A program made the translations under genes and the position numbers. A model generated the notes under the pieces. It had not been told where the DNA came from. It saw nothing but the letters and a program-made list of their open reading frames with translations, and made no database searches. Shown here piece by piece: positions 1-9,661 of a stretch of DNA of 64,000 nucleotides. This DNA comes from Marilutibacter aestuarii (GTDB taxonomy: Bacteria; Pseudomonadota; Gammaproteobacteria; Xanthomonadales; Xanthomonadaceae), in contig NZ_VICE01000133.1 of assembly GCF_006546775.1 (NCBI RefSeq), forward strand, positions 1 through 64,000, read 5' to 3'. Position 1 is the first letter of the stretch, and every line of letters starts with the position of its first letter.

Positions 1-3000
1 CCGTGGGCGTTGGCGCCACCTCGGCCGGGGCTTCGGCTTCGGCCGGCAGCCGCCCATCCAGGTAGTCGGCGAGCGAAGCGAGGGTCGAGGTATCGCTCAT
101 CAGCTGGCGGAAGGTCACCGGCGTTCCGAAGGATTTCTGCAGTTGCAGGGCGACCTGGGTGAGGATCAGGCTGTCGAGACCGAGCTCGATGAAATTGGCT
201 TCGGGCTCGGCATCGTCCATGTCGATGCCGGACACGTCTTCGATGGCCTCGCGCAACTGCCCCACCAGTCGGGCACGGCGGTCCTGGTGGTGGGCGGGCG
301 ACGGCATGGGCGAAGCGGCTTCGTTCGCCGGGACGAGGTGCGGCATGGGGTTCTCCTGGGTGGCCACGGCGGCCGGATGCGGGACCACGGTGCGGGTCGC
401 GGAAGGGGCGTCGAGCCAGTAGCGCTGGCCTTCGAAGGGGTAGCTGGGCAGTCGCACGCGGCGCCGGTACTCGCGCGCGTCCAGTTGCCCCGGCTGCGTG
501 TCGACCCCCGCCGACCAGAGCGCGCCGAGCGCGCGTCGCAACGCGACCGACTCGTCGACGCTGCCGTCGGAGAGGCTGGACACCAGCGGTACGTGCTGGC
601 GTGAAACCTGCGGGTGCATGCGCGCGAGGCTGGCGAGGTTGGTCCGCGGGCCGACTTCGAGCAGGGCGATCGACGGCGACTCGAGCGCGGTGAGGAGTGC
701 GCGCGAGAAGCGGACCGGCTCGCGCAGGTGCGAGGCCCAGTAGTCGGCCGACGCCGCCTGCGCCTGGTCCAGCCAGGTGCCAGTCGTCGTCGACACGATC
801 GGGCAGCGTGGCGCATGGCGCGCCACCGCGTCCACGGCGGCGCGGAAAGGCGCTATCGCGGGCGCCATCATCGCCGAGTGGAAGGCATGCGAGGTATGCA
901 GCAGGCGGCAACCGATTCCGTCGCTTTCGAGCCCTGCCTGGAACTCGGCCAGTCGATCCAGCGGTCCGGCGACCACGCACGCGTTGGGTGCGTTCTCCGC
1001 GGCCAGGGACACGCCGTCGGGCAGGCGCGAGGCAAGCGTCGCTTCGTCGATGCGCACCGACAACATGCCGCCGGGGGGTTGCGCCTGCATCAGCGCGCCG
1101 CGCCGGGCGACCAGGCGGATGGCGTCTTCCAGCGAGAAGATGCCGGCCAGGGTCGCCGCCACGAACTCGCCCACGCTGTGGCCGATCATGGCCACCGGCT
1201 CGACGCCCCGGGCCTGCCACCAACGCGCCAGCGCGTACTCGATGGCGAAGGTGGCCGGCTGCATCACCGAGGTCGGCAGCAGGGCCTGCGGGTCGTCGCT
1301 TGCCAGGCGTTCGTGCAGGTCGAAGCCGAAATCACCACCCAGGGCATCGGCGCAGGCGTCCAGCGCTTCACGGAAGGCCGGCTCGCGCTCGCGCAGTGCG
1401 CATCCCATGCGGGCGTAGGTCGCGCCCTGGCCCGGGAACATGAAGACCACCTGCGAGGCGCGCGCCGGTCGGCTTCGCGATGCCATCGCAGCGGTATCCC
1501 TTTCGCGCAATGCGCGCACGGCGTCGGCCGTGTCGCTGGCCACCAGCGCGAGCCGGTGCGCGAAGGCCTTGCGTCCAACGGCCAGTGTCCAGGCGACGTC
1601 GTCGAGATTGAGCGAGGGGTGCTGGTCCAGGTGCGCGGCGAGGCGTTCGACCGACGCTCCCAGCGCCGCCGGCGTGCGCGCCGACAGCACCAGCAGCTTG
1701 GGATCGGTCGACTGCGCCGTTGCCTCCCGCAGGGGCGCTTCCTCCAGCACCACGTGAGCGTTGGTGCCGCCCACGCCGAACGAACTGATGCCGGCGCGAC
1801 GCGCGTCGCCGCCACGCGGCCATGGCGTGCGCTCGGCGTTCACCACGAACGGCGAAGCGTCCAGTTCGAGCGCCGGGTTGGGCGTGTTGAAGTGCAGGGT
1901 CGCCGGAAGCGTCTCGTGCTCGAGCGACAGCGCGGTCTTGATCACGCCCGTCGCGCCCGCCGCGATCAGCAGGTGGCCGACGTTGCTCTTCACCGAACCG
2001 ATGCGGCAGAAGCCACGCGCGTCGGTCCCGCGTCGGAATGCACGCGTCAGGCCTTCGATCTCGATCGGATCGCCCAGGGGCGTGGCGGTGCCGTGCGCTT
2101 CGACGTAGCCGATGCTGCGCGCCGGTACGCCGGCGTCGGCATGCGCCATGGCGACCACCGCCGACTGCGCCTCGCTGCTGGGGGCGGTGAAGCTTGCCTT
2201 GTCGCCACCGTCGTTGTTGATCCCCACGCCGCGGATCACCGCGTGGATCGGATCGCCGTCGGCCAGTGCCGCCGACAGGCGCTTGAGCAGCACCACCGCG
2301 GCACCGTCGCAGAACACCGTGCCTTGCGCGTCCACGTCGAAGGTCCGCGTGTGCCCGTCGGGCGAGAGCATCGCGCCTTCCTGGTAACGGTAGCCGCTGT
2401 TCGGCGGACAGGTGACCGACGCACCGCCGGCCAGCGCCATGTCGCAGCGCCCGGCGCGCAGGCTGTCCACGGCCTGGGCAATGGCGACCAGCGACGTCGA
2501 GCAGGCGGTGTGGATGCTGATCGCCGGACCCGTGAGGTCGAGCTTGTGCGCGACCCGCGTGGCAATGTAGTCCTTCTCGTTGTCGAGCATCACCTGGAAC
2601 GCGCCCAGGCGCTCGATGCGCTCGGGATGGGCCGAAACGTGTTTCTGGAAGTAGCTGGCGTTGTACATGCCGGCGAACACGCCCACCGGTCCGGCGGTCG
2701 CGCCGGGCACGTGGCCTGCGCGCTCCATGCAGGCCCAGCACAGCTCGAGGAAGATCCGCTGCTGCGGGTCCATCAGCTCGGCCTCGCGGGGACTGATGCC
2801 GAAGAACGCGGCGTCGAACAGTTCGACGCCGTCGATCACGCCCCGCGCGGCGACGTAGGAAGGATCCTGCCGTTCTGCAAGGTCGATCGAAGGATCGAGC
2901 TCGTCGGCGCTGAAGAAGCGGATCGAGTCGCGCCCCTCGCACAGGTTCTCCCAGAACGCCTCCACGTCGTCCGCACCCGGGAACCGGCCCGCCATCGCGA

Positions 3001-5662
3001 TGATGGCGATGGGCTCTGAGGCCTCGCTCCTGCGCTCGCCCGTGGCGAAGCGCGAGGGCGCGGCATGGGTGTCGCCGGCATCGGCCAGCGCGCGCGCCAG
3101 CCCGGCCGGCGTGGGCAGTCGGAACAGGCTCGTCACGCCGACCTCGCCGAGGCCTTCGCGACGGATCGCCTGCAGCAGGTGCAGGGCCAGCAACGAAGTG
3201 CCGCCGAGGTCGAAGAAGTTGTCGTCGCGACCGATCCGCTCCAGGTCCAGCACCTCGGCGAACAGCCGGCACAGCGCGGCTTCCGGCGCGTCGCGCGCGG
3301 GCACGAATGCACCGGCCCAGTCCGGGCGCCCGCGGCCCGGCGCGGGCAAGCGGGCGCGGTCGAGCTTGCCGTTGGGCGACAGCGGCATGGCATCCATCGC
3401 CACGTAGGCCACCGGCACCATGTAGTCGGGCAGGCAGGCCAGCAGGTGCGCGCGCAGGCGATCCACGCGCACGGGCGCGCCGGGCTCGAGCGCGGTGAAA
3501 TACGCCACCAGGCGCTTCATCCCGGGCGTGTCCTCGCGGACCACCACGCCGGCTTCGCGCACGCCCGGGCAGGCCATGACCTGCGCCTCGACTTCGCCCA
3601 GCTCGATGCGGAAGCCGCGGATCTTGACCTGGAAGTCGCGACGCCCCAGGAACTCGAGCGTGCCGTCGGCCTGCCATCGCGCGAGGTCGCCGGTGCGGTA
3701 CATGCGCGCGTCCGCGCGGTCGACGAAGGGATCGGGCAGGAAGCGCTCGGCGGTCAGGTCGTCGCGTCCCAGGTAGCCCCGGGCGACCACCGGTCCGGCG
3801 AGGTACAGTTCGCCGGCCACGCCCTCGGGCACGGGCTGGCCGTTCGCGTCGAGCAGGTAACAGCGGGCATTGTCGATCGGCGCCCCGATCGAGGGCAGGC
3901 GCGGCCAGCGCGACGGCTCACCGTCCAGCGTGAGCGCCGTCACCACATGCGTCTCGGTCGGCCCGTAGTGGTTGTGCAGGCGGCACGCCGGCACGGCCTC
4001 GAAGAACGCGCGGATGCGCGGCTCGATGCGCAACTGCTCGCCGGCGGTGACCACTTCGCGCAGCTCGCATGCAGGGGTCGCCGATCCATCGCCCGCGCTG
4101 GCATTGGCATGGCCTTCGGCCAGCATCTGCAGGGCGAAGTACGGCAGGAAGATCCGCTCGATCCGGTGTTCGGCGATGAACGCGTACAAGCGGTCGCCGC
4201 TCAGGCGGGTGTCGCCATCGACCAGGTGGAGTTCGCCGCCGCTGCCCAGGGTGCTGAACATCTCCTGGAAGGCGACATCGAAGCCCAGCGCGGCGAACTG
4301 CAGCGTGCGCAACGGACGGTCGTGCCCAGGCTGGCGGTTCTGCCACAGGACCAGGTTCACCAGCGGCGCATGCGGCATCGCCACGCCCTTGGGCTTGCCG
4401 GTCGAACCGGAGGTGTAGAGCACGTAGGCCAGGTGCCCGGGGCCCACGCCGGTGTCGCTGGTTGCCAGGTCGGTCTCGGGCAGTCCGTCCCAGGACGTTG
4501 CATCGGCTTCCAGGTCGAGGACCGGGGCGTCACCTGCCGGGGCCTCGCCCAGGGCCGCCCAACCGTCGCCGAGCGACGCCTGGGTGACGACCGCGACCGG
4601 TGCGCTGTCGGCCAGGGTGTGGCGAAGCCGCTCGGCCGGATAGGCCGGGTCGAGCGGTACGTAGGCCGCGCCCGCCTTCAGGGTGGCGAGCACGGCGACC
4701 ACCAGTTCGAGCTGGCGGTCAAGGTAGATCGCGACGCGCGCGTCCGGGCCGGCGCCCAGCGCTTGCAAGTGGCGGGCCAGGCGATTGGCACGGCGGTTGA
4801 GCGCGTCATAGTCGAGGCGACGCGCACCATCCACCACGGCGGTCGCCGCCGGCGTGCGGCGTGCCTGGGCCTCGAAGAGCTGGTGCACGCAGGTCCCGGG
4901 CGGCAGGTCCGCTTCGTGGACGCCCTTGCCCATCAGGGCGGGCAGGTCTTCCTCGGACACGAGCGGCAACTGGTCGAAGGGCGCGGCAGGCGCGCCGACG
5001 ACGAGTCCGATCCAGCGCGACAGCCAGGCGGCAAGCTTCCCCACCATCGGCGTCTCCGCCGGCGATGCCTGCACGACCAGATCCAACTCGAGCGCGTCGT
5101 CGGATACCGTCGCCTGCAACACCAGCTCGCAGGACGCCAGGGGCGCGGGCACCGACGATGCGGCGCCGGACGCGCCCGCGATCTCGACGAAGCCCACCTG
5201 GAAGCCACTGCCGACGGCTTGCGCGTCCAAGCCCAACAGGGCCTCCCATCGTGCGCGCGGCATGCCGGCCTGCGCGCGGCCCTCGGCGCGCGCAGCGTGC
5301 ACTCCTGCCGCGCGATCGCCTGCGCTCGCGCCCGGGGGGCATTCGACCGCGACCGGCGTCAGGCGCGACCAGGCATCGTCGCCCTCGCAGAGGTCCGGGC
5401 CCAGGGTGGCCGCCCAGACCGTGCCGACGCCGCCGATGCGGGCGAGCAGGCTCGTCCAGGCGAGCAGGACGATGTCGCCGGGGCTCGTGCCGTGGCGCTC
5501 GGCCAAAGCGAAGATCGAACGGCTGCATGCGCGATCAAGGGCCACGTGCTGGCGCTGCGGCCGGCGCGTATCGTCGCCCTGGGCGAAAGGCAAGTCGATC
5601 CGCAGCGACGCACCCGAAAGCCGCCCCTGCCAATAGTCTTCCTGGTTCTGGAACGGATCCAC
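1..5662 (-). CDS. Hybrid NRPS-PKS megasynthase, 5' part (runs off left edge)
   Basis: About 1,887 codons are visible and the frame is still open at base 1. The start is a GTG at 5660-5662, with GGAG 8 nt upstream; there is no in-frame ATG before it. Domains in order: C-terminal lobe of a condensation domain (residues 1-225, starting at a YWxxxLxG motif, with no HHxxxDG lobe); adenylation domain (about 235-745; YTSGSTGKPKG at 416, substrate-pocket Asp462 in FDVAFQE); peptidyl carrier (Ser823 in LGGTS); ketosynthase (about 880-1305; Cys1054, His1190, His1230); acyltransferase (FPGQG, Ser1496 in GHSVG, HAFH at 1592-1595, the usual malonyl-CoA signature); acyl carrier (Ser1831 in LGLDS). No KR, DH or ER lies between AT and ACP. 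By family knowledge it would activate one amino acid and extend it with one malonyl unit without reduction. The product is unknown and the following modules are outside the window. A phosphopantetheinyl transferase gene at 7995-8768 could supply its cofactor. Confidence 0.93.
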   Translation of the reverse strand, partial: MDPFQNQEDYWQGRLSGASLRIDLPFAQGDDTRRPQRQHVALDRACSRSIFALAERHGTSPGDIVLLAWTSLLARIGGVGTVWAATLGPDLCEGDDAWSRLTPVAVECPPGASAGDRAAGVHAARAEGRAQAGMPRARWEALLGLDAQAVGSGFQVGFVEIAGASGAASSVPAPLASCELVLQATVSDDALELDLVVQASPAETPMVGKLAAWLSRWIGLVVGAPAAPFDQLPLVSEEDLPALMGKGVHEADLPPGTCVHQLFEAQARRTPAATAVVDGARRLDYDALNRRANRLARHLQALGAGPDARVAIYLDRQLELVVAVLATLKAGAAYVPLDPAYPAERLRHTLADSAPVAVVTQASLGDGWAALGEAPAGDAPVLDLEADATSWDGLPETDLATSDTGVGPGHLAYVLYTSGSTGKPKGVAMPHAPLVNLVLWQNRQPGHDRPLRTLQFAALGFDVAFQEMFSTLGSGGELHLVDGDTRLSGDRLYAFIAEHRIERIFLPYFALQMLAEGHANASAGDGSATPACELREVVTAGEQLRIEPRIRAFFEAVPACRLHNHYGPTETHVVTALTLDGEPSRWPRLPSIGAPIDNARCYLLDANGQPVPEGVAGELYLAGPVVARGYLGRDDLTAERFLPDPFVDRADARMYRTGDLARWQADGTLEFLGRRDFQVKIRGFRIELGEVEAQVMACPGVREAGVVVREDTPGMKRLVAYFTALEPGAPVRVDRLRAHLLACLPDYMVPVAYVAMDAMPLSPNGKLDRARLPAPGRGRPDWAGAFVPARDAPEAALCRLFAEVLDLERIGRDDNFFDLGGTSLLALHLLQAIRREGLGEVGVTSLFRLPTPAGLARALADAGDTHAAPSRFATGERRSEASEPIAIIAMAGRFPGADDVEAFWENLCEGRDSIRFFSADELDPSIDLAERQDPSYVAARGVIDGVELFDAAFFGISPREAELMDPQQRIFLELCWACMERAGHVPGATAGPVGVFAGMYNASYFQKHVSAHPERIERLGAFQVMLDNEKDYIATRVAHKLDLTGPAISIHTACSTSLVAIAQAVDSLRAGRCDMALAGGASVTCPPNSGYRYQEGAMLSPDGHTRTFDVDAQGTVFCDGAAVVLLKRLSAALADGDPIHAVIRGVGINNDGGDKASFTAPSSEAQSAVVAMAHADAGVPARSIGYVEAHGTATPLGDPIEIEGLTRAFRRGTDARGFCRIGSVKSNVGHLLIAAGATGVIKTALSLEHETLPATLHFNTPNPALELDASPFVVNAERTPWPRGGDARRAGISSFGVGGTNAHVVLEEAPLREATAQSTDPKLLVLSARTPAALGASVERLAAHLDQHPSLNLDDVAWTLAVGRKAFAHRLALVASDTADAVRALRERDTAAMASRSRPARASQVVFMFPGQGATYARMGCALREREPAFREALDACADALGGDFGFDLHERLASDDPQALLPTSVMQPATFAIEYALARWWQARGVEPVAMIGHSVGEFVAATLAGIFSLEDAIRLVARRGALMQAQPPGGMLSVRIDEATLASRLPDGVSLAAENAPNACVVAGPLDRLAEFQAGLESDGIGCRLLHTSHAFHSAMMAPAIAPFRAAVDAVARHAPRCPIVSTTTGTWLDQAQAASADYWASHLREPVRFSRALLTALESPSIALLEVGPRTNLASLARMHPQVSRQHVPLVSSLSDGSVDESVALRRALGALWSAGVDTQPGQLDAREYRRRVRLPSYPFEGQRYWLDAPSATRTVVPHPAAVATQENPMPHLVPANEAASPMPSPAHHQDRRARLVGQLREAIEDVSGIDMDDAEPEANFIELGLDSLILTQVALQLQKSFGTPVTFRQLMSDTSTLASLADYLDGRLPAEAEAPAEVAPTPT

Positions 5663-5814: not shown

Positions 5815-6321
5815 ATGGATTCGGATTTCAACCAGCTCTACGCGCAGCTCGGCCTGCGGCCCGGCTGCACGCTCGACGAGTTCAAGCAGGCGTACCGCCG
5901 CAGGGTCGCCGAGCTGCATCCGGACCGCCATCCCGGCGCGACCACGCGTGCCGCCGAGGCAGCCGCGCTCTCGCTGTCCGAGCTGACGTCGCTGTACGCG
6001 ACGGCGACGCGATTCCACCGCGCCCATGGCCGGCTCCCGGGCGCGGCACCCTCCTCCCGCCTGGTCGAGCTGCCACAGCGCCGGCATGCATCCATCGGCG
6101 AAAACGAGAACACGCTGCCGTCGCGGCTGGACACGGATGGCGACCCTCGCCGCCAGACACGTCTCGCGGCCCTGGTGGTCGTGGTGATCGTGGTCCTGAT
6201 CGTCGTGCTGGAAGCCAGCACGCCCGATGGTCGCCCCACGACGGCACCCGATCGCGCCGGCGCCGCGCCGCCCCCGTCCCCGTCGCCGACCGACCCGGCG
6301 AGCGGACTGCCCGCTCCTTGA
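5815..6321 (+). CDS. Small J-domain protein with one C-terminal membrane segment
   Basis: This 168-aa protein has an N-terminal J-like domain: residues 1-60, with a YAQLGLRPG start, a basic helix II and the HPD tripeptide at 35-37. A polar linker is followed by a very hydrophobic Val/Ile/Leu helix at about 117-133 and a Pro-rich tail. J domains stimulate Hsp70 ATPase, so it may recruit DnaK to the inner membrane; this is inference. It lacks the G/F and zinc-finger regions of true DnaJ. AGGGGA lies 4 nt before the ATG. It is divergent from the NRPS-PKS gene and convergent with the sugar transferase gene. The client is unknown. Confidence 0.85.
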   Translation: MDSDFNQLYAQLGLRPGCTLDEFKQAYRRRVAELHPDRHPGATTRAAEAAALSLSELTSLYATATRFHRAHGRLPGAAPSSRLVELPQRRHASIGENENTLPSRLDTDGDPRRQTRLAALVVVVIVVLIVVLEASTPDGRPTTAPDRAGAAPPPSPSPTDPASGLPAP

Positions 6322-6326
6322 CGGCA

Positions 6327-6347
6327 CGGCCGGCATCTCGCCGGCCG
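6327..6347. terminator. Perfect 8-bp hairpin between convergent genes
   Basis: CGGCCGGC and GCCGGCCG surround a 5-nt loop, just after the J-domain stop and just before the sugar transferase stop. There is no clear T tract on either side, so termination is only a guess from its position. Confidence 0.35.
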
Positions 6348-6357
6348 CGCGAGCACT

Positions 6358-7752
6358 TCATCGGGAGCCGCGCTGGAAGATCACCACCTCGACCGTCTGC
6401 AGCAGGATCATCAGGTCGAACACGAGGCCGTGGTTCTTGACGTAGAACAGGTCGAACTTGAGCTTTTCCTCGGCATCCTTGACCGAGGCGCCATACGGGT
6501 AGCGCAACTGTGCCCATCCGGTCAGGCCCGGCTTCACGCTGTGGCGCACGGAGTAGTAACGCAGCTCCTGGTCCAGCATGTCGACGAACTGCGGCCGTTC
6601 CGGACGCGGCCCGACGAAGCTCATCTGGCCCTTGATGATGTTGAACAGCTGCGGGAGCTCGTCCAGCCGGGTCAGGCGGATGAAGCGCCCCACGCGCGTG
6701 GTGCGGTCGTCGCCGGTACTGGCCCAGCGCGCGACGCCGTCGGCCTCCGCGTCGGTCCTCATGCTGCGGAACTTGACCAGGTCGAAATGCTTGCCGCCCT
6801 CGCCCACCCGTGTCTGCCGGTAGAAGATCGGGCCCCCGGACTCGAACCAGATGCACAGGGCCACCACCAGCATCGCCGGCCATGCGAGCAGCAGGAGCAC
6901 CAGCGCCGCAGCGAGATCGAAGAAGCGCTTGCTGAGGCGGCGCGGCGTGGAATGATCGAAGCCGCCCGAGAACACCAGCCAGGACGGGTCCGCCACCTGC
7001 ATCTTGACGATGCCGGCCTCGCGCTCGAAGAACGTCGACAGGTGGGTCACGGTGACGCCGCTTTGCGCGCAGGCGAGCATCTGCTCCATCGGCATCGCGC
7101 CGCGGCGCTCGTCGGCCGCGACGACGATCTCGTGCACCTGGAGGCGATCGACCAGCTCCATCAGCGTGCCGCCGCCGGCGTCGAGCAATCCGTCGCCGAC
7201 CACGACCTGCTGGCCATCCAGGGGCAGGAAGCCCACCACGACGAAGGATTGCCTGTCGTTCTGTCGGCGCATCCGCTGGTTGATCAGGTCGGCACGCTCG
7301 CCGGCGCCCAACACCAACACGCGGCGCTTGAGCGCGTCGCTCTTGAGCACGCGGAACAGGCCCACGCGCACGAGCAGCAACGCCCCGAAACCCAATGCGA
7401 GGGTCATCGCCAGCACGCCCCGCCCGATGTAGATCGCGGGCAACAGGTAGTACGCGACAAGCAGGGCGATGCCGCCGAACGCGAAGGACAGGATCAACCT
7501 CAGGATCAAGTCCACCCACTTGTGGCGGACATGCACCTGGTAAAGGCCGAACGCGGCCATCGCACCGGTCACGGCCATCGCCACCATGAATGCGCGCAGC
7601 CACAACCACTCGGCGAACTCCTGGTGGCCGGCCGGATCGTCATGGAAGCGCAGCCAGGCCGCGGCGGGCACCGCGATCATCACCAGCGCCAGTTCGACGA
7701 TCCAGAGGGTCAGCAGGGTCCTGCTCTTCCGGCTCCGCATGGACGCACTCAT
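6358..7752 (-). CDS. EpsB-type polyprenyl-phosphate sugar phosphotransferase (PEP-CTERM-associated type)
   Basis: This 464-aa membrane enzyme is expected to transfer a sugar-1-phosphate from a UDP-sugar to undecaprenyl phosphate, the first step of exopolysaccharide repeat assembly at the inner membrane. Four N-terminal transmembrane helices lie within about residues 10-130. A nucleotide-binding-like central domain follows (VLVLGAGERA), then a membrane re-entry at about 275 and the catalytic domain with KFRSMRTDAE, RLDELPQLFN, VGPRPERP and KPGLTGWAQ. The ending LRYPYGAS followed by a KNHGL-type segment and LLQTVEVV is typical of the TIGR03013 group, which is linked to exosortase/PEP-CTERM loci. 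The start MSASMRS is chosen because GGGAG lies 7 nt upstream; the frame is open further upstream but that sequence is not protein-like. It sits between the phosphopantetheinyl transferase gene and the NRPS-PKS gene. Confidence 0.92.
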   Translation of the reverse strand: MSASMRSRKSRTLLTLWIVELALVMIAVPAAAWLRFHDDPAGHQEFAEWLWLRAFMVAMAVTGAMAAFGLYQVHVRHKWVDLILRLILSFAFGGIALLVAYYLLPAIYIGRGVLAMTLALGFGALLLVRVGLFRVLKSDALKRRVLVLGAGERADLINQRMRRQNDRQSFVVVGFLPLDGQQVVVGDGLLDAGGGTLMELVDRLQVHEIVVAADERRGAMPMEQMLACAQSGVTVTHLSTFFEREAGIVKMQVADPSWLVFSGGFDHSTPRRLSKRFFDLAAALVLLLLAWPAMLVVALCIWFESGGPIFYRQTRVGEGGKHFDLVKFRSMRTDAEADGVARWASTGDDRTTRVGRFIRLTRLDELPQLFNIIKGQMSFVGPRPERPQFVDMLDQELRYYSVRHSVKPGLTGWAQLRYPYGASVKDAEEKLKFDLFYVKNHGLVFDLMILLQTVEVVIFQRGSR

Positions 7753-7895
7753 GCCGGGACTCCCGGGACCGCCGGAATCCCGCACCGCGGCACCCCGGCG
7801 ACACTCGCCCTGCGCGCGGCATCGCGCCGGCGCTCCCCAACGCCATCGCCCCGCGTGGAGGCGCCCCCGAGCTGCTTGAACATCCCTGCTGCCTC

Positions 7896-7918
7896 TGAAT
7901 GCCACTAACCTGCATTCA
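7896..7918. promoter_or_regulatory. Inverted repeat upstream of the sugar transferase gene
   Basis: TGAATGC and GCATTCA are separated by 9 nt and centred about 155 bp before the start of the sugar transferase gene, in the 242-bp gap (7753-7994) that follows the phosphopantetheinyl transferase gene. The symmetry is perfect in both 7-bp arms. It could be an operator; nothing in the sequence names the regulator. The rest of the gap holds nothing recognisable. Confidence 0.3.
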
Positions 7919-7994
7919 AGAACGGCAAGGTGCCGCCGAACCGGCCTCCATCCCCGCCTGGCGTGCACGCCGCGGACGCCAGGCGCCCCGGGCA

Positions 7995-8768
7995 CTACGC
8001 GCGCGGCGTGGCCGCGGGCGCGAGCCAGGCAAAGGTGACCGGCGCCCCCGGCGCCATCGAGGCGAGCGCCGCGACATGCGCCGGCCCCGCCTCGAGCATG
8101 CGGATGCGGATATCCCGGCCATCACCGGGCAGCGGCAACCAGGCATCCGGAGGCGCTTCGATGGCGGTCATCTCGATCGACATGCCCTGGCCCGTGGCCT
8201 TGAGGAGGGCCTCCTTGCGCACCCACAGTTCAAGCAGGCCCGGTCCGCGGTCGGCAGTCTCCCCCGGCAGCCGGCGACGCTCGGCTGGCGTGCACATCGA
8301 CGCCACCAGGTCCGGCAGCATCGAAGCCCTGGCGCGTGCCTCCAGGTCGATTCCCACCGGCCCGTCGAGGCTCAAGGCCAGGGCCACCGCGCCGTCGGCG
8401 TGGCTCAGGCTGGTGTGCCAGGGCGTGCCGGGCAGTCGCGGACAGCCCATCGCGTCGCGCACGAGGGGCACCCCCGAGGGCGGGAGACCCATCGCGCAGG
8501 CCACCGCCATGCGATGGAATGCGTAGGCCAGGGCATGCATCTCGCGATCGCGGGGACGGCGCTGGCGGTCGACGCGCTCGCGCTCGACGTCAGTGATCAA
8601 CGCCCTCGCAGCTGCCAGGCGATCGATCCAGGCGTTGCAGTGGACGAGCACCGCGAAGGTCGTCGGCCAGCCGGACGTGCCCGGGAGCGCCGCCCGCAGG
8701 CAGGCCGAGAAATCGGCGAACAAGGCATCGACGGATGCCGGACTCGCTTGCGGGTCCTGGAACGACAT
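7995..8768 (-). CDS. Sfp-type 4'-phosphopantetheinyl transferase
   Basis: This 257-aa protein should move phosphopantetheine from CoA to the carrier-domain serine of NRPS/PKS enzymes. The family signatures are visible: SLSHADG, GIDLEAR (metal-binding Asp and Glu) and WVRKEALLKATG (catalytic Lys/Glu helix). The length fits the two-repeat monomeric Sfp class rather than the short AcpS class. The start MSFQDPQ is preferred because the frame upstream is low-complexity sequence that reaches back into the tRNA-Arg gene; a GGAG lies 11 nt before it. It is transcribed in the same direction as the sugar transferase and the NRPS-PKS gene further left, whose two carrier domains in view are likely substrates. 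Confidence 0.9.
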   Translation of the reverse strand: MSFQDPQASPASVDALFADFSACLRAALPGTSGWPTTFAVLVHCNAWIDRLAAARALITDVERERVDRQRRPRDREMHALAYAFHRMAVACAMGLPPSGVPLVRDAMGCPRLPGTPWHTSLSHADGAVALALSLDGPVGIDLEARARASMLPDLVASMCTPAERRRLPGETADRGPGLLELWVRKEALLKATGQGMSIEMTAIEAPPDAWLPLPGDGRDIRIRMLEAGPAHVAALASMAPGAPVTFAWLAPAATPRA

Positions 8769-9057: not shown

Positions 9058-9300
9058 GTAGTCGGAAAATTATGACGACGATGAGGCTTTCCGTCAACCA
9101 TTTTCCTGTACGTTTTCCGGTCTTTCTTCGACGCCGAAGCAGTCGCTTGCACGACTGCCCGGGCTGTCATCGAACGTCGCCCCTTTGCATGCACGCGTGC
9201 CGGATGCGGACATCCAGCTTGGCGATTGCAGACCGGGTAGCAGGGCTGCGCGGCATTCAAACCGGGCGCAGGACTGCTGGAGGCAACATCGATATGGAAC

Positions 9301-9460: not shown

Positions 9461-9661
9461 TCAGTCGACCGGCTTGCCAGCGTCTTCGGCGGCGCCTTCG
9501 CCGCGCTGGATGCGCTGGTAGATCTCTTCACGGTGAACCGCTACGTCCTTCGGCGCAGTAATGCCGATACGTACCTGGTTGCCCTTGACGCCGAGCACGG
9601 TGACGGTCACCGAGTCGCCGATCATCAGGGTTTCACCGACGCGACGCGTCAGGATTAGCAT
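9461..9661 (-). CDS. csrA: Carbon storage regulator CsrA/RsmA
   Basis: This 66-aa RNA-binding dimer is a global post-transcriptional regulator that blocks or stabilises mRNAs at GGA motifs. It starts [12 protein letters not shown] and carries the [11 protein letters not shown] core, including the conserved RNA-contact residues Arg (near position 6) and VHREEIY. The length matches the family (60-70 aa). GAGGAGAG lies 6 nt before the ATG. It lies between alaS and tRNA-Ser, a conserved position, and has its own promoter at 9754-9782. Confidence 0.97.

Follow-up and report, generated by a model that had tools for sequence, protein, structure and literature searches.

An NRPS-PKS assembly line built into a TIGR03013-type exopolysaccharide locus without exosortase in Marilutibacter aestuarii and its relatives

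Exopolysaccharide (EPS) loci associated with the exosortase XrtA and PEP-CTERM proteins carry members of the families TIGR03013, TIGR03007 and TIGR03027, according to Haft et al. (2006, PMC1569441). A comparable locus is found in Marilutibacter aestuarii (genome of 3.49 Mb, 156 contigs, 99.98% complete). We analysed the first 64,000 bases of its 81,056-base contig C95 (G000:C95:1-64000, hereafter the window), in which a TIGR03013 transferase lies between a phosphopantetheinyl transferase (PPTase) and a gene encoding a hybrid nonribosomal peptide synthetase-polyketide synthase (NRPS-PKS). As in XrtA loci, the families for priming, chain length and export are represented, all over their cut-offs; relatives of the tyrosine kinase, the outer-membrane protein and hydrolases 1 and 2 stay below theirs. 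Unlike XrtA loci, this locus shows no exosortase, PEP-CTERM protein or PrsK over cut-off, and an NRPS-PKS line is built into it.

The Wzx/Wzy-dependent pathway offers a second comparison. The two share a priming transferase, a Wzx flippase, a Wzy-type protein, Wzz, a BY-kinase, Wza and glycosyltransferases, whereas a thiotemplate assembly line coupled to the flippase gene sets this locus apart. The assembly line itself has the order ketosynthase (KS), acyltransferase (AT), carrier (T) and aminotransferase, then modules of condensation (C), adenylation (A) and T domains, which is also that of the mycosubtilin/iturin and McyE-type NRPS-PKS; it differs from these by its amino-acid-type starter A domain, its lack of a thioesterase domain and its location in an EPS locus. 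The outcome proposed here, an adenylation-made, carrier-bound aminoacyl group ending on an envelope polymer, would resemble the D-alanylation of teichoic acids by the Dlt system, although a multi-module line replaces the single A domain and the polymer is different. NRPS genes and EPS genes are treated in separate sections of PMC3102044. Among open-licence papers, considered by their titles and the beginnings of their abstracts, there was no report of NRPS or PKS genes inside such EPS loci, which is not proof that the association is unpublished.

We consider it rather probable that the window is the left part of a single TIGR03013/Wzx/Wzy EPS locus devoid of exosortase, in which the NRPS-PKS product decorates the EPS repeat before export. 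Gene content and order show that the NRPS-PKS is integral to this locus, where it is accompanied by a dedicated pair of hydrolases and coupled to the flippase gene. All three genes introduced above are on the minus strand, and their coordinates and identities as given in an earlier note on this DNA proved correct by profile matches, motifs and a start check. The EPS priming enzyme, a TIGR03013 (EpsB_2) polyprenyl-phosphate sugar-phosphate transferase (6358-7740; TIGR03013 537.4 bits, cut-off 393.35; PF02397 221.5 bits), has no second representative in the genome; the closest named relatives are Lysobacter spongiae (95% identical in this enzyme) and L. penaei (81%). The PPTase, a 4'-phosphopantetheinyl transferase of the Sfp type (7995-8768; PF01648 47.2 bits, cut-off 25), has intact GIDLE and WVRKEA motifs. 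PF01648 matches two places in the genome, the other being G000:C97:10474-10719, so the window PPTase is not the only one. The NRPS-PKS gene (2-5662) is cut by the contig end; its 5' part, of 1887 aa, consists of a C-like remnant recognized by eye and A, T, KS, AT and T domains identified by Pfam and motifs.

C95 does not contain the left flank beyond the window, which was recovered from two other contigs of this genome, C86 and C80, and from relatives whose contigs are long. The remainder of the NRPS-PKS, with its aminotransferase, starts C86: in an alignment with the 2514-aa orthologue of genome G004, the window protein covers residues 1-1881 and the C86 open reading frame residues 1971-2514, leaving about 89 aa in the assembly gap. 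On C86 the aminotransferase part is followed by a second NRPS gene (NRPS2), by two alpha/beta-hydrolase-like genes (HYD2, then HYD1) and by the gene of the Wzx flippase (PF01943), and no other exporter was called next to the NRPS on this contig. C80 encodes glycosyltransferases, two deacetylases, a Wzy-type protein (by PF04932, a Pfam family common to Wzy and O-antigen ligase), an outer-membrane protein, a BY-kinase, Wzz (TIGR03007, 347 against a cut-off of 278.85), Wza (TIGR03027, 198.4 against 180) and an epimerase, as well as TviB-like and GalE-like proteins named from their cluster mates. The components of a Wzx/Wzy-dependent system (priming transferase, Wzx, Wzy, Wzz and Wza) are thus all present, and lie in one stretch in, for example, G001 and G005.

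In the source genome, the NRPS-PKS and NRPS2 genes overlap by 1 base, NRPS2 and HYD2 by 4 and HYD1 and wzx by 4. HYD2 and HYD1 are 83 bases apart as called; the homology of HYD1 reaches back to position 9101, which would give a 4-base overlap, likewise seen in G001, G004 and G005. Overlaps of 4 bases occur at three junctions in G001, and of 1, 4, 4 and 4 bases in G004. In the nearest relatives, NRPS, both hydrolases and flippase thus overlap head to tail, and the assembly line and the flippase gene would most simply form one transcript. Apart from this line itself, no match to NRPS2 in the genome exceeds 76.5 bits.

For the wider locus we turned to seven relatives that have long contigs and were picked because their NRPS genes adjoined the transferase (G001, G003, G005, G011, G017, G021 and G055, of which G005 is a single-contig genome). 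In all seven, the transferase, A, KS, AT and C domains, HYD1, HYD2, Wzz, BY-kinase and Wza are contained in one stretch of 50-60 kb; the aminotransferase is found in four and Wzx in six. Locus labels come from gene calling followed by BLAST comparison with a limited set of references. The flippase gene of G005 was not called, nor were the hydrolases of G010 and G011; the latter were recovered by tblastn.

The hydrolase pair follows the NRPS. Both genes are present in all 11 extended NRPS loci (G000-G005, G010, G011, G017, G021 and G055), a count that leaves out G006 and G027, in which the NRPS genes reach the edge of the stretch. Six loci bearing an acyl-ligase/carrier pair were also extended. 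One of them, G033, has NRPS genes upstream and contains HYD1 and HYD2, and neither the hydrolases nor any KS, AT or C domain were found in the other five (G009, G018, G019, G022 and G047), over about 60-77 kb each. Among the rows aligned from NRPS and ligase/carrier loci, in which G033_0 and L164 represent the same gene, the place of the nucleophile is occupied by Cys in 17/17 HYD1 sequences, with a His in 16/17, and by Arg in 16/16 HYD2 sequences. An AlphaFold model of a HYD1 from Luteimonas kalidii (L137, a locus with a ligase/carrier pair beside the transferase, and not the source genome's own protein) has a mean predicted local distance difference test score of 78 and adopts an alpha/beta-hydrolase fold with the Cys between a strand and a helix. 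Its nearest structures are esterases, and HYD1 finds general alpha/beta-hydrolases among solved structures.

To see how widespread the arrangement is, 80 named related loci were gathered and 78 were used, L172 and L178 being dropped as their transferase was not called. NRPS/PKS genes were counted as beside the transferase from one gene before to four after it, and ligase/carrier pairs up to seven genes after it. By this definition, 36 loci have NRPS/PKS genes, from named genera including Lysobacter, Pseudoxanthomonas, Luteimonas and Dokdonella, 28 have a ligase/carrier pair and 14 have neither. A PPTase lies at most two genes upstream in 20/36, 0/28 and 2/14 of them, respectively (NRPS versus ligase/carrier, Fisher p 3.9e-7, computed on related, not independent, sequences). 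The 10-kb flank ends inside the NRPS genes in 34 of the 36 NRPS loci, where hydrolases are not countable, and the remaining named loci with a ligase/carrier pair were, for the most part, likewise viewed over 10 kb per side. A tree was built from 79 transferases, that of the window among them, and labelled by whether NRPS genes stand beside the transferase, a label that describes this neighbourhood and not cassettes owned by the locus. The label requires 12 changes, of which starred branches force at least 9; with shuffled labels the figure is 26.3. This state is therefore clustered on the tree, yet has changed repeatedly.

A ligase/carrier pair beside the transferase can be combined with an NRPS-PKS in one locus. 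In G033 (L164, Luteimonas sp. J29) a complete NRPS-PKS, a second NRPS and the hydrolase pair lie on the same strand, about 9-22 kb upstream. Both kinds are likewise present in L117 and L150, and on these grounds we rejected the idea that one module simply replaces the other. The loci with both (L117, L150 and L164/L186, that is G033) belong to Pseudoxanthomonas and Luteimonas. L137 and L143 may be of this dual type too, since a hydrolase pair sits at the edge of their flank.

Regarding chemistry, the proteins bear the marks of a hybrid NRPS-PKS: A, T, KS, AT and T domains, a predicted aminotransferase, C domains and a PPTase, by Pfam and motifs. In the window, the starter A domain (3365-4876, minus strand; PF00501 283.4 bits) has the pocket letters DVQIVAHVVK, which we take to be Pro-like. 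The KS domain (1889-3016, minus strand; PF00109, PF02801) displays HTACSTS, EAHGT and KSNVGH, that is the Cys and both His motifs. The AT domain (632-1447, minus strand; PF00698 188.2 bits) contains GHSVGE and HAFH, presumably of malonyl type, and the second carrier domain (59-259, minus strand; PF00550) an LGLDSL motif. NRPS2 (2202 aa) is organized as C-A-T-C-A-T by Pfam, with two HHxxxDG motifs; its two carrier stretches are Pfam PP-binding matches, and a strict carrier pattern matched neither. No thioesterase or reductase release domain was matched by Pfam in the complete NRPS-PKS of G001 or in NRPS2 of M. aestuarii, and the two free hydrolase genes come after these genes lacking a release domain. 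Structure searches with two A domains returned general NRPS matches among solved structures.

The order A-KS-AT, mostly with the aminotransferase, then C(-A) recurs among the loci, the aminotransferase being absent from the same gene in some lines with Thr-like and Ser-like starters. The starter pocket DVQ-x-x-AHV-V/I-K is shared by the window and 11 relatives, and others read DFWNLGMVHK, DVWHMSL.. or DALWLGG.., among further types. By contrast, 19 of 23 elongation-type A domains, counted after removal of same-genome duplicates, read DILQLG.VW, with four exceptions in G001, G003, G010 and L158. If the usual specificity codes apply (Pro-, Thr-, Ser- and Val-like starters, Gly-like elongation), starter pockets would vary and elongation pockets would be mostly Gly-like. 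The earlier note had suggested a lipopeptide; the amino-acid-type, seemingly Pro-like letters of the starter pocket speak against it, and a lipopeptide starter was set aside. Genes of 254-325 aa lie between the transferase and the NRPS in L121, L127, L152, L153, L169, L170, L175, L181 and L182. Three scanned genes in this position (L152, L175 and G055, L058:9220-10137) match Cupin_8/JmjC and are candidate amino-acid hydroxylases, which would fit hydroxylation of a residue.

Based on these features, the PPTase would arm the carrier domains of the NRPS-PKS (A-T-KS-AT-T-aminotransferase) and of NRPS2 (C-A-T-C-A-T). The predicted product, an aminoacyl-polyketide-glycyl group, would combine a starter amino acid (Pro-like in the window) with one malonyl unit and two Gly-like residues, the aminotransferase presumably performing beta-amination of the malonyl-derived unit. 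HYD1, with its Cys at the nucleophile position, and its Arg-bearing partner HYD2 may then release the product from the final carrier domain, and HYD1 might attach it to one of the sugars in the undecaprenyl-linked repeat begun by the TIGR03013 enzyme, both this acceptor and this transfer enzyme being our guess. The coupled Wzx would flip the decorated repeat, for polymerization and export by Wzy, Wzz and Wza. Attachment to the polysaccharide would be covalent in this scheme, and a product ending on the polysaccharide is in our view the most economical explanation of the gene arrangement.

The earlier note had linked NRPS-PKS chemistry to an exosortase-type EPS locus. The link is real, conserved and operonic, a peptide-type modification of polysaccharide being its best explanation; the exosortase part did not survive. 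TIGR03013, TIGR03007 and TIGR03027 over cut-off would suit an XrtA locus with an NRPS-PKS insertion, and the TIGR03018 kinase, TIGR03016 outer-membrane protein and TIGR03100/TIGR03101 hydrolases all have significant matches below cut-off. Yet the exosortase model TIGR02602 had no match in M. aestuarii or in seven genomes of the genus and none over cut-off among 247 genomes of the family (one weak match, E 1.1e-4), while the same model exceeded its cut-off in 53/185 genomes of the class. PEP-CTERM (TIGR02595), whose tails the earlier note proposed to seek in the proteome, had no match at E <= 1 in M. aestuarii and matched 7/14 control genomes in the same search, two of them over cut-off. That note had named the lack of any exosortase or PEP-CTERM protein as evidence against its proposal, and this lack is what was found. 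PrsK (TIGR02916) passed its cut-off in 0/7 genomes of the genus, with sub-cut-off matches in all seven and in 13/14 controls; PrsR was not searched for. Of the genes sought in the left flank, wzx and a wzy-type gene were recovered (on C86 and C80), and neither xrtA/epsH nor prsK was found over cut-off. An exosortase hidden in the unassembled part is very unlikely given the completeness of the genome. As the searches revealed neither an exosortase nor a PEP-CTERM protein in this genome, this is not a PEP-CTERM sorting locus, and we give an XrtA locus with an inserted NRPS-PKS practically no credence. TIGR03013 exceeds its cut-off in 81/247 family genomes and exosortase in 0/247; thus the family has retained EPS proteins of the XrtA type in the absence of the sorting enzyme.

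Three further readings deserve attention. The window ends inside the NRPS-PKS gene and, taken alone, would be compatible with the chance meeting of two unrelated loci, an option raised in the earlier note; synteny across several genera, with the arrangement kept in seven extended relatives and 36/78 named loci, makes this highly improbable, and we rejected it. A more serious contender, albeit one we deem doubtful, is that the product of the NRPS-PKS diffuses away as a small molecule of its own, such as a signal, a siderophore or an antibiotic, and is merely co-regulated with EPS in a biofilm programme. Small NRPS-PKS lines often yield free products, the hydrolases could simply release such a compound, no enzyme joining peptide to sugar was identified, and related EPS loci manage without the line (five of the six extended ligase/carrier loci). 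On the other hand, the line and its hydrolases overlap head to tail, in the nearest relatives, with the gene of the flippase, the only exporter called next to the NRPS on C86, and the line recurs beside the same priming transferase; mostly Gly-like elongation with varying starters would also be more in keeping with a decoration that varies than with a single bioactive product. Alternatively, the line could make an anchor or primer, one per chain, rather than decorate each repeat. Its position between priming transferase and flippase, not among the glycosyltransferases, would agree with this, but TIGR03013 priming needs no peptide, and one copy per chain cannot be told from one per repeat by sequence; we regard this version as improbable.

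Several observations weigh against a decoration of the repeat by the NRPS-PKS product. The source-genome locus is spread over three contigs, its contiguity resting on relatives. The hydrolases fall short of the TIGR03100/TIGR03101 cut-offs, and HYD1 might be only an editing thioesterase. Coupling is looser in G005 and G003, where NRPS2 and HYD2 are 142 and, as called, 241 bases apart, and in G055, whose hydrolases are on the opposite strand about 15 kb from the NRPS. No Wzx was found in the extended locus of G017, nor Wzz, kinase or Wza in G027, which has an NRPS-PKS near the transferase and was covered over 40 kb, and the contig of G010 ends before any of these three. Among the named loci, the 14 with neither module beside the transferase (two at a contig edge) and the 16/36 NRPS loci without a PPTase within two genes upstream are exceptions. 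Finally, the ligase/carrier pair does not simply stand in for the NRPS-PKS, as at least 3 of its 28 loci have NRPS genes elsewhere in the locus (L117, L150 and L164).

The remaining genes of the region and of related loci are as follows. From right to left on the minus strand, the window carries csrA (9461-9661, named by eye), two tRNA genes, the PPTase, the transferase and the NRPS-PKS. Between the last two lies a plus-strand gene for a J-domain protein (5815-6321; PF00226 32.7 bits against 27.8), convergent with the transferase and retaining the HPD motif, in which a hydrophobic stretch was seen by eye. Its relatives sit at or near the same place in several related loci, NRPS and ligase/carrier alike, with HPD kept in 12 of the 14 members of the cluster and lost in two. 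A large FG-GAP/NPCBM-associated protein adjoins the flippase in L090 (11485-13812), and its relative in L037 (9783-12659) has a right-handed beta-helix region; two or three genes of this type occur in the G005 and G001 loci. Two proteins encoded in EPS loci, L037:16956-18677 (573 aa) and L043:15664-17448 (594 aa), have a GINT1_N-like C-terminal part, the former with an additional weak formyltransferase-like part.

Tentatively, and with less confidence than even odds would express, we extend the decoration of the EPS repeat to a broader hypothesis. The NRPS-PKS genes may constitute a mobile thiotemplate cassette delivering an aminoacyl-polyketide-glycyl group to the lipid-linked EPS repeat before flipping via a Cys-type hydrolase. 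Together with the hydrolase pair, this cassette might have been gained, lost or combined with a ligase/carrier pair at one and the same EPS locus across the order, its starter varying like a serotype switch, and the hydrolases 1 and 2 of classical XrtA loci might handle a carrier-bound acyl group as well.

Without this context, genome mining would class such genes among the orphan natural-product clusters, and a free compound would be sought. If the decoration is real, NRPS-PKS lines would also build decorations of surface polysaccharides and not free natural products alone. It would additionally give a handle on the role of the hydrolase 1 and 2 genes around exosortase-A EPS loci, and the starter residue of the decoration would vary across a bacterial family.

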